Below the pieces are notes generated by a model, which was not told where the DNA came from, made no database searches, and saw only the letters and a program-made list of their open reading frames with translations. Of a stretch of DNA of 64,000 nt, positions 51,440 through 58,813 are shown piece by piece. The translations under genes were made by a program, and so were the position numbers. Source of the stretch: Hyphomicrobiales bacterium (GTDB lineage: Bacteria > Pseudomonadota > Alphaproteobacteria > Rhizobiales > Beijerinckiaceae); NCBI GenBank assembly GCA_930633495.1, contig CAKNFJ010000001.1, forward strand, positions 4,983,001 to 5,047,000. Direction: 5' to 3'. Position 1 is the stretch's first letter; each line of letters opens with the position of its first letter.

Positions 51440-51685
51440 TCAATCCAACTTGCGCCAGTCCCTGACCATCAGCAGGTTGCCGATGGCGATACCGCTCACC
51501 GTGACGTCGCCACCGACGAGCGGGTCGAGGCTCTGGTCTCCGAAGGCCGGAGCGCCTTCTTTCCGGAGCTCGTAGGTCGTGCCGTCCTGCGTCGTCAGCG
51601 TGACAGCGCCGCGCTCGCTTTTCGAGCCCGCATCGAGGGTTCCGAAGCTCACCCGCCCCGACAGTTCGACTTTCCTGGGATCCAT
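51440..51685 (-). CDS. 81-residue beta-rich hypothetical protein next to the caspase-like gene
   Basis: Short strands with alternating hydrophobic residues (KVELSGRVSFGTLD, GAVTLTTQDGTTYELR, DVTVSGIAIGNLLMVRDW) suggest a small OB-fold or beta-barrel; this is a guess from pattern only. No signal peptide. The ATG follows the TAG stop of the peptidase gene with no gap, so it is co-translated. It may be a partner or inhibitor of the peptidase. Confidence 0.55.
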   Translation of the reverse strand: MDPRKVELSGRVSFGTLDAGSKSERGAVTLTTQDGTTYELRKEGAPAFGDQSLDPLVGGDVTVSGIAIGNLLMVRDWRKLD

Positions 51686-53239
51686 CTACCGGCTTTCGGA
51701 AATGTCTATCCTCGTCACTCCATCATCCATGATATGGGCAACAAAAACACGATATGAAGGCAACTCGACTTCCGTCGTCGTCTTCGCGGGCTGCTTCGCC
51801 CTTTCGACCGCAATCGCGATGGTCTGGGATCGGCCGATCCGCTTCGACGCAGCCTTGAACTTCGCGCCGCCGGTCACCGCATAGGCCTTGGGCGTGGTCG
51901 AGAAGCCGTTCATCTGTGCGGCGCTCTGAAGCCTTTTCTCGACATCGGCGGAAAGCTCGACGGGGCGTCCCGGGAAGGTTGCGGCGGCGGCAAAGGCCAT
52001 GCCGTCGCTTTCAAGAAACACGCGCCGGGTCTTGCGGGCGCTTTGCAGGTCCTTGGCGCTCGACACGGAGGCGACCGCCAAGGCGGGATCGGCGCCAGCC
52101 GGCGACGCTGCGACCGGCTCGACCGTGGGAACGAGCGACGGATCGCCATAGAGCACGAACTGGGCGATCGTCTTCAGGTTCGTCGCCACCGACATGACCT
52201 GGCCGGCGACGAAGCGCTGGCGGGCCTGCAGCATGGCCCGTCCGGTCGAGGCGCCCTTGAGGGCCTCTTCCAAGAAGTACTGGCATATCAGATCGGCTTC
52301 GCCATTGGCCGCGGGCGGGCCGTAGGCGATGTTCGTGCTGCCGACGAAAGCCGCGGCGCCTCCCAGAAGATAGGTCATGCAGATCGGCTGGGGCCAGCCG
52401 GCGAGGGCGTGGTTGTAGAGCTGCGCGCCATAGCAGCATTCCGCCGCGACGATGACGCCAGGGGCGAGATGGCCGGCCACGCGGTTGCTTTCCATGGCGA
52501 CCGGGTACTGCACTCCGCCTTGGCCATAGAAGCGCCAGTCGTTGTTCGCGCCATGGCAATTGATGAAATGCGTCAGCCGCGTCAGATTCGGATCGATGCG
52601 CGTATGGGCCGCGTTCGGGGCGATATGCATCCCGGCATGGGTGCCGAACAGATTGCTCAGGCTGAGCTGCGTCGACACGCGCCAGACATCGCAACTGATC
52701 GCGAAGAATGGAGCGTGGTTCTCGGCCGACCGGCTCTCATGAGCGATGCTGATATCGAGGAGCCGGATCAGCACCTCCTCGTCCGACGTCCCCGGCGGAA
52801 CCGGCAGCCTGCCGACGACGCGCGTCACGGCAAGATAAGCATTGACCGTCCGGCTGAACGGGGCGGCGGATGCGTAGGGCAGGTCGCTCGGGATCGAGGC
52901 GTCGCTGTCGGTGATGCCCGTAATCCGGTTCAGCTCGATATGCGGGATGACATCCGGACCATCCAGAAGCATGACGTAGTCGGGCAGAAGCGTCTTGCAG
53001 ATCGCGTCGACCGCGGTCTTCGCGCCGCGTTCATCCTTCTCGCTGATGACCGCGGTAGCGCCGAACGGTGCCATCTGGACGAGATCATCGATCTCGACGA
53101 CCTGTGTCTGCAAGCCGCGCGCGAGATCGGCCGCGATGAGCCGGGTGAGGGCGGCTTTGATCGCCGTTGCGCCGGGAGCGCCGTACTTCTTCTGCAGCGC
53201 TGATAGGTTGGAGATGACGACCTTGTCGACGGTGGGCAT
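51686..53239 (-). CDS. clan-CD peptidase-like protein (C25 gingipain / caspase-like fold)
   Basis: 517 residues without a signal peptide. Clan CD features are visible: a core strand LPDYVMLLDGPDVIPHIELN (about 86-104), His229-Gly230 at the end of a hydrophobic strand (LTHFINCHGANND), and the Cys pair C268-C269 after another (GVIVAAECCYGA). FVLYGDPSLVPT (361-372) follows, a segment typical of C25 peptidases. About 140 further C-terminal residues form an unrecognised domain. His and Cys are in the order and spacing of gingipain/caspase enzymes, so it is probably active. Target unknown. Confidence 0.75.
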   Translation of the reverse strand: MPTVDKVVISNLSALQKKYGAPGATAIKAALTRLIAADLARGLQTQVVEIDDLVQMAPFGATAVISEKDERGAKTAVDAICKTLLPDYVMLLDGPDVIPHIELNRITGITDSDASIPSDLPYASAAPFSRTVNAYLAVTRVVGRLPVPPGTSDEEVLIRLLDISIAHESRSAENHAPFFAISCDVWRVSTQLSLSNLFGTHAGMHIAPNAAHTRIDPNLTRLTHFINCHGANNDWRFYGQGGVQYPVAMESNRVAGHLAPGVIVAAECCYGAQLYNHALAGWPQPICMTYLLGGAAAFVGSTNIAYGPPAANGEADLICQYFLEEALKGASTGRAMLQARQRFVAGQVMSVATNLKTIAQFVLYGDPSLVPTVEPVAASPAGADPALAVASVSSAKDLQSARKTRRVFLESDGMAFAAAATFPGRPVELSADVEKRLQSAAQMNGFSTTPKAYAVTGGAKFKAASKRIGRSQTIAIAVERAKQPAKTTTEVELPSYRVFVAHIMDDGVTRIDISESR

Positions 53240-53251
53240 CGGACAGCTCCC

Positions 53252-53554
53252 TTACGACTTCAGTTTCTGCAAGGTCGAATCCCAGGCATATCCCGCGAGC
53301 AGAGCCGCGCGCGGGTCGGTCAGCGTTTCACCGGCGAAGGCGAGGACAAGGAAGGCTGTGCAAGCGGACGCCGCGCCCAGCACGAGATAAGGCCTCATCA
53401 CATCGAGAATGCCTTGCGTCTCTATAAGACCCTTCTGGTTGCCGGGCGCGTTCGGGAAATGCTGCCTCACCGAAGCCCACAGGCCGGGCAGGAGCACGCT
53501 GATGACGATGCCGAGCAGGCACCAGCCAAAGATCGAGGGACTAGCCATCGCCAT
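53252..53554 (-). CDS. small two-helix membrane protein
   Basis: 100 residues with two likely transmembrane segments: about 7-27 (SIFGWCLLGIVISVLLPGLW) and about 54-75 (LVLGAASACTAFLVLAFAG). It lies 12 nt before the peptidase gene and 37 nt after the peroxidase gene. No family was recognised. It may anchor or be the target of the peptidase. Two adjacent ATG codons (M1, M3) are possible starts. Confidence 0.6.
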   Translation of the reverse strand: MAMASPSIFGWCLLGIVISVLLPGLWASVRQHFPNAPGNQKGLIETQGILDVMRPYLVLGAASACTAFLVLAFAGETLTDPRAALLAGYAWDSTLQKLKS

Positions 53555-53591
53555 GCCTCGTATTGTCGCGATGCGAGAGGGAGTGGGGCGG

Positions 53592-54569
53592 TCAGCTGCT
53601 CGTCGCCGGGGCTGAATCCGGCGGCAAGGGCTCCATGCCGGTGTCCTGACCGATCCTGATCAGGCCCTTCAGCGTGAATTCTCCCGACTGCAGCTCATTT
53701 TCCGTCGGCGGATCGGCGATCACGCTGTCCCGGGCATGCCTGATCAGGTTCCAGAAGGTTTCGGCGACGATCCGGCTGCCGACGGGGCCGAGATGCTGGC
53801 CGTTCGGGCCTGAGGTATCTCCCGCTTCGGCAAGGATATAGAACCAGAGCGGCGTCTGCTGGAGCAGGCCCGCCTGCTCGATCTCGGCCCGGGCGCCGGG
53901 CGGGATAGCGGCGGCAAGGGTGTTGACGCTCAGCGGCGTCACGCCGATTTCCCGGGCGATCGCCTGCCCGGTCGGCAGGCCGAGCAGGTAGCCGCGCAGC
54001 AGGTTGCGCGCCGCGAGCTGGCCGAGCACACCTTCGATCGGTCGTCCGACGATGTCACGCAGCGTGCCGAGATCGGGCGTCAGGCGGGTGTCGATGCGAC
54101 GGGCGGGATTCAGGCCGGGATCGCCCGGTGCGCCCTTCGTGCTGAAGAAGCGCGGCCATTCGATGATCCAGTTGTCCGGCAGGGTGGGGAACTGCGTGCT
54201 CGGGCCTTCATCCGGAGCGATATCACCCGACAGGGCTGTGAACGTGAAAAGGAAGTTGAACGTGGCGCGCGCGCGGCCTTCCGGACTGAAGGTCGCGTTG
54301 TGTGAATATTCGGCGCGGATCATCGAATGTCCGAAGCGATAGGCGGCCGCGGAAAATTCGAGGGGCATGAAGAGCTGCCCGGCCGTGTCGGCTTTCCAGA
54401 AGCGCGGCCCGTTGCGGACGACGTCGCCAACCACCGCGGGGTCGCAGATGCGGGGGAGGAAGTCGTGCAGCGCCGCCCATTGGTAGCGGCGGCGTATCGC
54501 GGTGCGGGCCGCCTCCTTGTCGAGTCCGCGCCGCATCAGCACATTGTGCGAGCGCAGGATGCCGACATT
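53592..54569 (-). pseudogene. animal-type haem peroxidase, N-terminus lost at IS21
   Basis: About 325 residues of the C-terminal two-thirds of an animal haem peroxidase-like protein: GILRSHNVLMRRGLDKEAAR, YQWAALHDFLPRICD, and AYRFGHSMIRAEYSHN with the probable proximal haem His. The region that should hold the distal His is missing because homology stops at the IS21 end (54570). The open frame runs about 24 codons further into the IS, but those residues are IS-derived. In relatives the protein is about 500-600 residues, so this copy is truncated and probably inactive. Confidence 0.8.
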
Positions 54570-54681
54570 GTTGATTTCCGTCGAGAATTGACCCGTTAGG
54601 CGGGGATTTTTCCATCGAGAATTGACCCATGTTTTGACCACGTCTCACGCGGGCTATGCGGGGGACCTCGGAGTGATCGAC

Positions 54682-56211
54682 ATGGAGTTATTGAGTGTCA
54701 TCCGCCGCTGGCATGGGCGGAATCATCTTTCGATCCGGGAGATTTCCCGGCGCACGGGGCTCTCGCGGAATACGGTTCGCAAGTATCTGCGTGCGGATAG
54801 CGTCGAGCCCCGGTTTCATGTTCCCGACCGGCCGAGCAAACTCGATCCCTATGCCGACAAGCTCTCGGCGATGCTTCGGATCGAAGGCGGCAAGTCGCGC
54901 AAGCACAAGCGCACGGTCCGCCAGTTGCATGCCGATCTGATTTTGCTCGGTTATGAGGGCTCCTACAATCGGGTCGCGGCCTTTGCCCGGGACTGGAAGG
55001 CAGCCCGCCTGCGCGAGCAGCAGACCAGCGGCCGTGGCACCTTCGTCCCCCTGGCCTTTGTGCCGGGTGAAGCGTTCCAGTTCGACTGGTCGGAGGACTG
55101 GGCGATCATCGCTGGCGAGCGCACCAAGCTGCAGGTGGCGCATGTGAAGCTGTCCTACAGCCGCGCCTTCACACTGCGAGCCTACCCGCTGCAGACCCAT
55201 GAGATGCTGTTCGACGCCCATAACCACGCCTTCCGGGCGCTGGGCGGCGTGCCGCGGCGGGGCATTTACGACAATATGAAAACGGCCGTAGACAAGGTCG
55301 GCCGCGGCAAGGACCGCCAGGTCAATATCCGCTTCTCGGCCATGGTCAGCCACTTCCTGTTCGAAGCCGAGTTCTGCAATCCGGCATCAGGCTGGGAGAA
55401 GGGGCAGATCGAGAAGAACGTCCAGGATGCCAGGCATCGACTCTGGCAGCCTCTGCCGAACTTCCCGTCGCTGGAGGCACTGAACGACTGGCTGGAGACC
55501 CGGTGTCGGGAGTTATGGTCGCAGACCGCGCACGGCACCCAACCTGGAACGGTTGCCGATGTCTGGACTGAAGAGATCCGGCACCTGATGGCGATGCCGC
55601 GCCCCTTCGATGGCTTCGTCGAGTACGCCAAGCGCGTCTCCCCAACCTGCCTGGTCCATCTGGAACGCAATCGTTACAGCGTGCCGGCGTCCTTCGCGAA
55701 CCGCCCGGTCAGCTTGCGCGTCTATCCCGATCGCATCCTCATTGTCGCTGAGGGACAGGTGATCTGCGAACATCGCCGGGTCTTCACCCGCTCGCATGAT
55801 CGTCTCAGCCGGACAGTCTACGACTGGCGACATTATCTGGCGGTCCTCCAGCGCAAACCCGGGGCTCTGCGTAACGGTGCTCCCTTTGCCGAGATGCCGC
55901 CAGCCTTCCGATCCCTGCAGCAGCATCTGCTCAAGAGCCCGGGTGGCGAGCGGGAGGTGGTCGAGATCCTGGCTCTGGTCCTGCAGCATGACGAACACAT
56001 CGTGCTGACGGCGGTCGAACTGGCCCTGAAGGCCGGCGTGCCGACCAAGACCCACATCATCAACCTCCTTCACCGGCTGGTCGACGGCACGCCGTTGACC
56101 ACGCCGACGGTCGACACCCCTTCGGTCCTTGCGTTGACCACCGAGCCGCGCGCCAATGTCGAACGCTATGACGCCCTGCGCCAAGCCGAGGACGTGCGCC
56201 ATGCGTCATAA
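54682..56211 (+). CDS. istA: IS21 transposase IstA
   Basis: 509 residues from ATG 54682 ([13 protein letters not shown]). An N-terminal HTH is at [20 protein letters not shown]. The DDE integrase core has probable catalytic residues D135 (FQFDWSED), D197 (RGIYDNMKT) and E239 ([10 protein letters not shown]). The C-terminal domain is of the Mu/IS21 type. A TTG start 20 codons earlier is less likely. Confidence 0.94.
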
Positions 56212-56995
56212 CCCTGCGAGCGGCGCCATCGCCATCATGCTGCGTAGCCTCAAGATGCACGGCATGGCCCAGGCCGTCGGCGAACTGACGGAGCAGGGAT
56301 CGCCGGCCTTCGAGGCCGCCGTGCCGATCCTCTCGCAACTCCTGAAGGCGGAGATGGCCGAAAGAGAGGTCCGATCAACGGCCTACCAACTCAAGGCCGC
56401 GCGCTTCCCGGCCTATCGCGACCTCAACGGCTTCGACTTCGCCAGCAGTGAGATCAACGAGGCGCTCGTTCGCCAACTGCATTGTTGCGAGTTCCTCCAG
56501 GACGCCGACAACGTCGTCCTGGTGGGAGGGCCGGGCACCGGCAAGACCCACGTCGCCACGGCTCTCGGCGTCCAGGCCATCGAGCACCATCACAAGCGGG
56601 TCCGCTTCTTCTCCACGGTCGAACTCGTCAATGCCCTCGAGCAGGAAAAGGCCCAGGGCAAGGCTGGACAGATGGCCGCCGGGCTCGCTTACGCCGATCT
56701 CGTCATCCTCGATGAGCTCGGATACCTGCCCTTCAGCGCGTCGGGTGGTGCCTTGCTCTTCCACTTGCTGAGCAAGCTCTACGAGCGCACCAGCGTCGTC
56801 ATCACCACCAATCTCAGCTTCTCCGAATGGGCCACCGTCTTCGGCGATGCCAAGATGACCACCGCCTTGCTCGATCGGCTCACGCACCACTGCCACATCA
56901 TCGAAACCGGAAACGACAGCTTCCGCTTCAAGAACAGCTCCGCGAAACCCGACAAGCCAGCCAGGGAGAAAGCCAAAAACTTGACCGCAACCTGA
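56201..56995 (+). CDS. istB: IS21 transposition helper ATPase IstB
   Basis: A 264-residue AAA+ protein with Walker [10 protein letters not shown] (about 107-116) and Walker [12 protein letters not shown]. It forms ATP-dependent complexes on target DNA and directs IstA. The ATG at 56201 overlaps the istA end by 11 nt, the normal arrangement in IS21. Confidence 0.95.
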
Positions 56996-57223
56996 ACCAC
57001 AAACACCATCTGGGCGGGTCACTTCTCAGTGGAAACCCCGGGTCACTTCTCGGCGGAAATCAACATTTCGGTAGTAATCGGTGTTTTTGCCGACCTGCGC
57101 CAATTCTTGTTGCTCGTTTCCGGCGCACGAGAAGAGCGATTGTGGTTGCTTCGACCCCGACAGCTTCCTCCGTTCAATGGCCTGTGTCCGCTTGAGGTGC
57201 TTTGCGGATCATTCGAAGATCAG

Positions 57224-57967
57224 ATGACCGTACGGCGGCATATTGCTGCTGTCGTCGAGGGCGCATCGGCTCGCCGTGACATAGATTTGAGCGATCCAGC
57301 CAGTACCGCCAACGAGGAGATTTGGACAGGTGCCACGTCGCGTGAGATTCAGGCAGTTTGCTTTGATGCATTCGGGACCGTTGTAGAAATCGTCGACAAG
57401 CGTCGTCCATTCCACGCGCTTCTCCGCGATGAACCGTCGGGCGCGCTGGCGGTGATGGCAATCACGCGCCCGACCGGCTTGCGACAACTGTCGCGAGAGA
57501 TGGCCAACCCCGTAACTGAAGACGAGCTGGCACGGCTAGAAGCAGACGTTGAAGCGGAGTGTGCATCGACGCGGTTGCGACCGGGCGTGAGCGAGATGTG
57601 GTCCGCGTTGCGTCGAGCCGGGCTGAAGATCGCGATCTGTTCGAACCTCGCTTACTCCTACGAGCAGACCTTGATCGATCAGCTTCCCGATTCACCTGAC
57701 GCGCTCGTGCTGTCGTTTCGTGCGGGCCTGATGAAGCCCCAGCATGAGATTTACCGGTTGGTATGCAGGGAGCTACGACTGCAGCCCTCTGAAGTCCTGT
57801 TCACCGGCGACGATCTGGAGGCAGACGTCTTCGGACCGGGCGCCATCGATGCGCTGGCCATGCCTATCGAGGAGTTCGAGAGCTCGTACTCGGGGCGCGT
57901 ATCCTTCTTTGCGCCGAGCGAGGTTGTCGACCTCTTCGCGCGAATTGCCGCTGCGAAGGCGCGGTAG
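57224..57967 (+). CDS. HAD-superfamily hydrolase (HAD-IA type)
   Basis: 247 residues from ATG 57224; the true start is unsure because the frame is open into the IS and no strong Shine-Dalgarno was seen. HAD motifs: I = D48-A-F-G-T (CFDAFGTVVEI), II = ICSNLAYSY, III = Lys of GLMKPQHEIY, IV = FTGDDLEADV. A cap domain is inserted after motif I (about 55-130). Motif I DxFGT fits dehalogenase or phosphatase members. GC and codon use are lower than in the core genes, which suggests transfer. It lies 51 bp before the metallophosphoesterase gene. Confidence 0.85.
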   Translation: MTVRRHIAAVVEGASARRDIDLSDPASTANEEIWTGATSREIQAVCFDAFGTVVEIVDKRRPFHALLRDEPSGALAVMAITRPTGLRQLSREMANPVTEDELARLEADVEAECASTRLRPGVSEMWSALRRAGLKIAICSNLAYSYEQTLIDQLPDSPDALVLSFRAGLMKPQHEIYRLVCRELRLQPSEVLFTGDDLEADVFGPGAIDALAMPIEEFESSYSGRVSFFAPSEVVDLFARIAAAKAR

Positions 57968-58018: not shown

Positions 58019-58813
58019 ATGCGCTTGCTGGTGATCTCCGATCTGCATCTTGAATTTGGCCCCTTCAAGTTTCCTGCGCCTATGCCGGAGTTTGACGTGG
58101 CGGTGTTCGCCGGCGACATGGGGCAGCCAATTACGGCGGCTGTGGCGTGGATGGTGCAGCAAGAGCAGCACCTGGGCCCGCTCTCTGGGCGCCCAGTCGT
58201 TTATGTACCTGGGAATCACGAATTCTACGGCAGCGAGATGAAGTCGAGCCTCGCCGATGGCAGAGAAGCAGCGAGGGCAGCGGGGATCGAGCTGCTCGCC
58301 CGTCGCAGCGTCGTCATTGATGGCGTCCGCTTTATCGGCTGCGTATTATGGACCGATTATCGCCTCCTCGGGACACCTAAGCCGTCGATGGTGTTTGCCG
58401 GGCAGGAGCTGAACGATCACAGACTCATTCGCTATCGCGAGGACAGCGGTCATTATAGCCGCTTCATGCCCTGGCATGCAGCGGCCGAACACCGGCTCGA
58501 TCTTGCTTTCATTCGCAGCGAGCTTGCAAAGACGCACGAGGGGCCAACCGTTGTGGTCACGCACCACGCGCCACACCCGCAATCGGTCCAGCCAAGACAC
58601 CAGGGCAGCGCGCTGTCCCCGGCTTTCGTCTCGGATCTGAGTGTCCTAATCGAGGACTACCAGCCAGACCTCTGGATCCATGGCCATGATCACGGATCGC
58701 ACGACTACAGGGTGGGACGCACGCGCGTTTTGGCCAACCAGGCTGGTTACCCAAATCTGCACGGCGATCGAGAGAATCGACGGTTCGACCCTCTTTGCGT
58801 CGTTGAGGTCTGA
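58019..58813 (+). CDS. calcineurin-like metallophosphoesterase
   Basis: 264 residues; GGAGG precedes the ATG. The di-metal motifs are all present: D8-L-H10 (ISDLH), G-D33 (FAGDM), G-N66-H67-E (PGNHE), the His of VVTHHAPH, and GHDH late in the protein (DLWIHGHDHGSHDY). It hydrolyses a phosphomonoester or phosphodiester; the substrate is unknown. It probably forms an operon with the HAD gene and shares its lower GC. Confidence 0.9.
   Translation: MRLLVISDLHLEFGPFKFPAPMPEFDVAVFAGDMGQPITAAVAWMVQQEQHLGPLSGRPVVYVPGNHEFYGSEMKSSLADGREAARAAGIELLARRSVVIDGVRFIGCVLWTDYRLLGTPKPSMVFAGQELNDHRLIRYREDSGHYSRFMPWHAAAEHRLDLAFIRSELAKTHEGPTVVVTHHAPHPQSVQPRHQGSALSPAFVSDLSVLIEDYQPDLWIHGHDHGSHDYRVGRTRVLANQAGYPNLHGDRENRRFDPLCVVEV

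Follow-up and report, generated by a model that had tools for sequence, protein, structure and literature searches.

A 64,000-nucleotide stretch of the genome of a Hyphomicrobiales bacterium (contig CAKNFJ010000001.1, positions 4,983,001 to 5,047,000), referred to here as the window, carries on its minus strand a gene pair which we read, with a probability of about one half, as the core of a two-gene protease-inhibitor cassette. The pair consists of a leaderless cysteine peptidase of family C25, the family of the gingipain fold (517 amino acids, 51686..53239), and an 81-amino-acid protein with a predicted OB fold (51440..51685), proposed to be its inhibitor. Upstream of them lie a 100-amino-acid two-helix membrane protein (53252..53554, minus strand) and what is left of an animal-type haem peroxidase gene (53592..54569, minus strand). 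The first-pass annotation had described these four genes as an operon, and both their positions and the gaps of 37, 12 and 0 nucleotides (nt) were confirmed. The frames of the protease, the OB partner and the membrane protein are intact in this genome.

The C25 profile matches the 517-residue protein at 37.3 bits, above the curated cut-off of 23, and a gingipain fold with His-Gly and Cys is predicted (catalytic H229 and C269, or C268), the C-terminal alpha/beta domain beginning after about residue 393. Judged by its sequence the protein belongs to peptidase family C25, proteolysis itself being predicted. C25 peptidases are familiar chiefly as the secreted gingipains and PorU of Bacteroidota, and gingipains use type IX secretion and have a domain order of their own. 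In the window protease the core fold opens with a strand at residue 6, with no signal peptide and no room for an N-terminal propeptide, and the Met closest to residue 7 lies 2-8 residues ahead of it in 82 of the 89 homologues. Both the clan CD assignment and the missing leader proposed in the first-pass annotation are borne out, and the fold without a clan CD core that it had named as a refuting outcome did not appear. Identity to the gingipains RgpB and Kgp in the fold alignment is 15-16%. An attempt to derive a Lys/Arg preference from the specificity-pocket residue was dropped for want of a residue-level alignment to gingipains (no PDB sequence matched at E up to 0.01).

The OB-partner gene begins with its start codon directly after the protease stop codon, and the two may be close enough for translational coupling. 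The first strand of the 81-residue protein starts at residue 4, and there is no lipoprotein leader. A Lys-Ser in the loop between beta1 and beta2 (K22-S23, within GSKSE) is kept in 52/52 alignment members. The family DUF5818 (PF19135) scores 22.7 bits on the window protein, below its curated cut-off of 27, and is matched by 5 of the 52 members at E up to 0.01. Given no role in the first-pass annotation, which had recorded its presence correctly, this small beta protein is yet the most constant partner of the protease: in the loci examined the pairing is obligate almost everywhere, while the peroxidase and the membrane protein accompany the pair in particular lineages only. These loci come, by record titles and with many metagenome bins among them, from Proteobacteria, Bacteroidota, Streptomyces and kin, Acidobacteria, Nitrospira, Planctomycetes and others, so that a leaderless C25 branch across phyla is tied to one small protein without a described function. 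In the open-licence literature searched 'DUF5818' is mentioned nowhere, and among the matches listed in C25-centred searches of the same literature no title or abstract dealt with a protease-OB pair of this kind.

We read the OB protein as an inhibitor because a coupled, co-inherited small gene directly after a protease gene is the layout of known protease-inhibitor operons; restraint would be needed in the cytosol, since the protease is leaderless and its catalytic residues are intact. The protease, lacking both a signal peptide and an N-terminal propeptide, would be synthesised in the cytosol, and the product of the next gene would bind it and hold it inactive, the invariant Lys-Ser loop possibly lying in the active-site cleft in the manner of a substrate. 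Loss, dilution or displacement of the inhibitor, for example on lysis or breach of the envelope, would leave the protease active. In the alphaproteobacterial version, the two-helix protein could provide an alternative trigger by releasing the protease at the membrane. The freed enzyme would then cut proteins in its vicinity, for which the enzymes encoded next to the pair are natural candidates.

Hydropathy along the membrane protein peaks twice (in 19-residue windows that begin at 7 and 57), and its C-terminal LAGYAWDSTLQKL is invariant in 5/5 homologues. The Lys residues of LAGYAWDSTLQKL and the Lys-Ser of the OB loop might be recognised by a gingipain-like enzyme. Homologues stand directly upstream of the protease in five loci (the window, L003, L086, L088 and L120); a profile built on these five proteins found no further locus, and among 29 protease-bearing records the protein occurs in the same five, with no further copy. 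Its homologues in the protein database number 642; comparison with Pfam (E up to 1) and with PHROG (E up to 0.1) gave no match. When membrane-protein clusters on contigs of at least 2 kb were compared with 120 listed C25 clusters, 24 of 70 shared the exact length of their carrying contig with a C25 cluster, against 0.36 expected (the mean with shifted lengths, maximum 3). The recurrent linkage of the protease to a membrane protein of about 100 residues, which had been put forward for survey, is thereby upheld. Among clusters on contigs of at least 20 kb, 8/17 were unmatched among the 120, so that some genomes may carry the membrane protein but not the protease.

The peroxidase fared differently: its assignment to the animal-type family stands, but the gene is not intact. 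When three intact relatives were compared with the window by tblastn, the match covered no more than residues 212-525 of 527 (L002), so that the window peroxidase lacks its first ~211 residues and retains about 60% of the enzyme, the C-terminal part; the distal His of animal haem peroxidases lies in the N-terminal part. Homology ends at 54569 with two of the relatives and at 54608 with the third. An IS21-type insertion sequence (IS) on the plus strand begins exactly at 54569 (54569..57065; transposase 54622-56211, IstB 56156-56995, IstB_IS21 match 3.3e-78) and is bounded by terminal inverted repeats of 27 nt that are 93% complementary. As homology stops at this element, the peroxidase is a remnant and the operon lacks its 5' end; both were destroyed by the IS in this genome. 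The genome holds 19 full-length copies, and because 18 of them are about 100% identical (the remaining one 92%), the element was evidently active recently. No peroxidase N-terminus was found on the far side of the IS, and the N-terminal part of a relative's peroxidase had no match in the whole genome, in a search run without a positive control. Across the IS from the remnant, a HAD-type hydrolase frame starts at the element's edge (57029-57967) and is followed by a calcineurin-like phosphoesterase (58019-58813).

In other genomes peroxidases stand near the protease above chance, in statistics that are unadjusted for relatedness. Outside the window, 29 records (repeats excluded) hold 18 peroxidase genes, and six of these are no more than 20 kb from the protease, against 0.2 expected; the set was hand-picked (30 handles from about 90 loci), L002, L003 and L087 being picked for a known peroxidase, and with these three left out the count is 3/13 against 0.12 (P 3e-4). 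Over the DNA of 88 loci (1.5 Mb), four loci have a peroxidase (L002, L003, L085, L087) where 0.22 were expected (P 8e-5). A Nitrospira peroxidase (genome G800) was rejected as linked, its contig having 171,212 bases and the protease contig 99,791. The protease-peroxidase linkage suggested at the outset thus recurs, and with the membrane protein recurring as well, the homologues are not without these neighbours, as the opposite outcome would have had it.

Other neighbours were identified at many loci with a simple purpose-made gene caller (coding fraction 0.76) and BLAST/phmmer labels, and Pfam was run on 38 proteins, a few of them non-neighbours or repeats; L123 was left out for poor gene calls, and L126 repeats L021. 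A subtilase (S8) lies directly upstream of the protease in 7/80 mapped loci (L029, L036, L039, L049, L053, L065, L076; Pfam run for L053 only). Near the pair there are also trypsin-like proteases (L005, L087, L089/L121), M14 carboxypeptidases (L063, L067), GDSL hydrolases (L009, L021, L124), a galactose-oxidase-like protein (L120), DyP and tyrosinase. LodA-like clusters (L022 11944-18367; L089 11127-17488, with L121; L090 980-7475; L091 9904-16428), from Sphingomonas, Bradyrhizobium, Rhizobium and Novosphingobium records, comprise a ferritin-like protein (PF12902), a split LodA-like oxidase, a radical SAM protein and a flavoprotein annotated as tryptophan 7-halogenase; these labels come partly from annotation or phmmer, and the LodA_N and LodA_C matches fall under their Pfam cut-offs. 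Ferritin-like genes are described near fungal lodA genes in PMC4417212. In Chitinophaga, 14 of the 16 loci share a neighbour family, and 12 loci of the Roseateles group share another one; as these are metabolic or signalling genes, judged by eye, the pair occupies a fixed chromosomal site in both groups. A protein of about 340 residues with no Pfam match is found near the pair in L120 (7659-8669, Bradyrhizobium genus) and L085 (10034-11068, Sinorhizobium meliloti plasmid), with 55% identity over 343 columns. A fusion of a GDSL-like hydrolase with a C14 caspase domain is found at a distance of a few kb from the C25 genes on Rhizobium plasmids (L086 13770-15680, minus strand; L088 2602-4512), the GDSL part of the L086 fusion falling just below the Pfam cut-off.

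These neighbours invite the view that the protease is dedicated to processing the adjacent oxidoreductases and proteases (peroxidase, LodA-like oxidase, tyrosinase, DyP, S8, S1), the OB protein serving as a chaperone for its substrates. The excess of nearby peroxidases, the LodA-like clusters and the upstream subtilases favour it, but only 31/89 loci have a same-strand gene within 150 nt upstream of the protease, and these genes are of unrelated families, which makes such a role doubtful and weighs against a fixed link to such enzymes. More room is left for an OB protein acting as a sensor or adaptor, for nucleic acid or another ligand, through which a caspase-like protease would be activated in regulated cell death or a stress response. 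Since nucleic-acid binding is common among OB folds, and the CHAT proteases of CRISPR and CBASS-type systems have partners that switch them, we hold this a possible, though minority, explanation. That the four genes came together by IS traffic and have no joint function is very improbable; the truncated peroxidase does adjoin a 19-copy IS, but other genera show these neighbours too, more often than expected by chance, and this recurrence already disfavours the reading.

The defence part of the cell-death, stress or defence role offered in the first-pass annotation gained no support. With PADLOC models the sole match of the four proteins at E up to 1 was ZorB (E 0.071), 50,697 phage records contained no relative, and viral contigs gave none with patterns from one protein that reach close relatives only; a defence module and, on the last two results, a viral origin were rejected. 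In the text of two conflict-system papers (PMC7159879, PMC8195603) gingipain, C25 and peroxidase have 0 occurrences, and PMC12419801 describes an OB-fold immunity protein for other toxins, naming gingipains in a reference only.

Returning to the protease-inhibitor cassette, its fullest form would be an always-ready cytosolic protease of gingipain/caspase fold in many phyla, OB-inhibited through a substrate-like Lys-Ser loop, freed on cell damage and aimed at adjacent stored enzymes (peroxidases, quinone oxidases, other proteases), partly by way of a membrane-anchored micro-protein. We consider this whole circuit unlikely as it stands; if true, bacteria would have an equivalent of an innate protease cascade. 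Should the OB protein prove to be an inhibitor, the cytosolic C25-inhibitor pair would let protease control be tested readily in non-pathogenic organisms and might yield gingipain-type inhibitors.

Compared with RgpB and Kgp, the window protease falls outside the secreted subgroup, having neither signal peptide nor propeptide, and it has an OB-fold partner gene. The OB fold is shared with the potempins, inhibitors of the KLIKK proteases of Tannerella forsythia; these are lipoproteins encoded directly before their protease genes (according to PMC7296668), whereas the window protein is leaderless and encoded after the protease, and its 6 matches at E up to 10 include no potempin. As set out in PMC3462683, a cysteine protease gene adjoins a small inhibitor or inhibitor-like gene in staphopain-staphostatin, SpeB-Spi and the Bacteroides C10 pair Bfp-Bfi, and Spi and the staphostatins are thought to guard the cytoplasm. 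The window pair has the same arrangement of a cysteine protease gene beside a small partner gene, but staphopain, SpeB and Bfp are papain-like and exported, and their inhibitors stand outside this OB family. Since the leader is absent, the gene order is unlike that of potempins and no sequence similarity was found, membership in the potempin or staphostatin systems is not established, and the resemblance of the pair to them would be one of working, by analogy. With the CHAT proteases of Craspase and SAVED-CHAT, in turn, it shares a cytosolic clan CD core together with a putative controlling partner.
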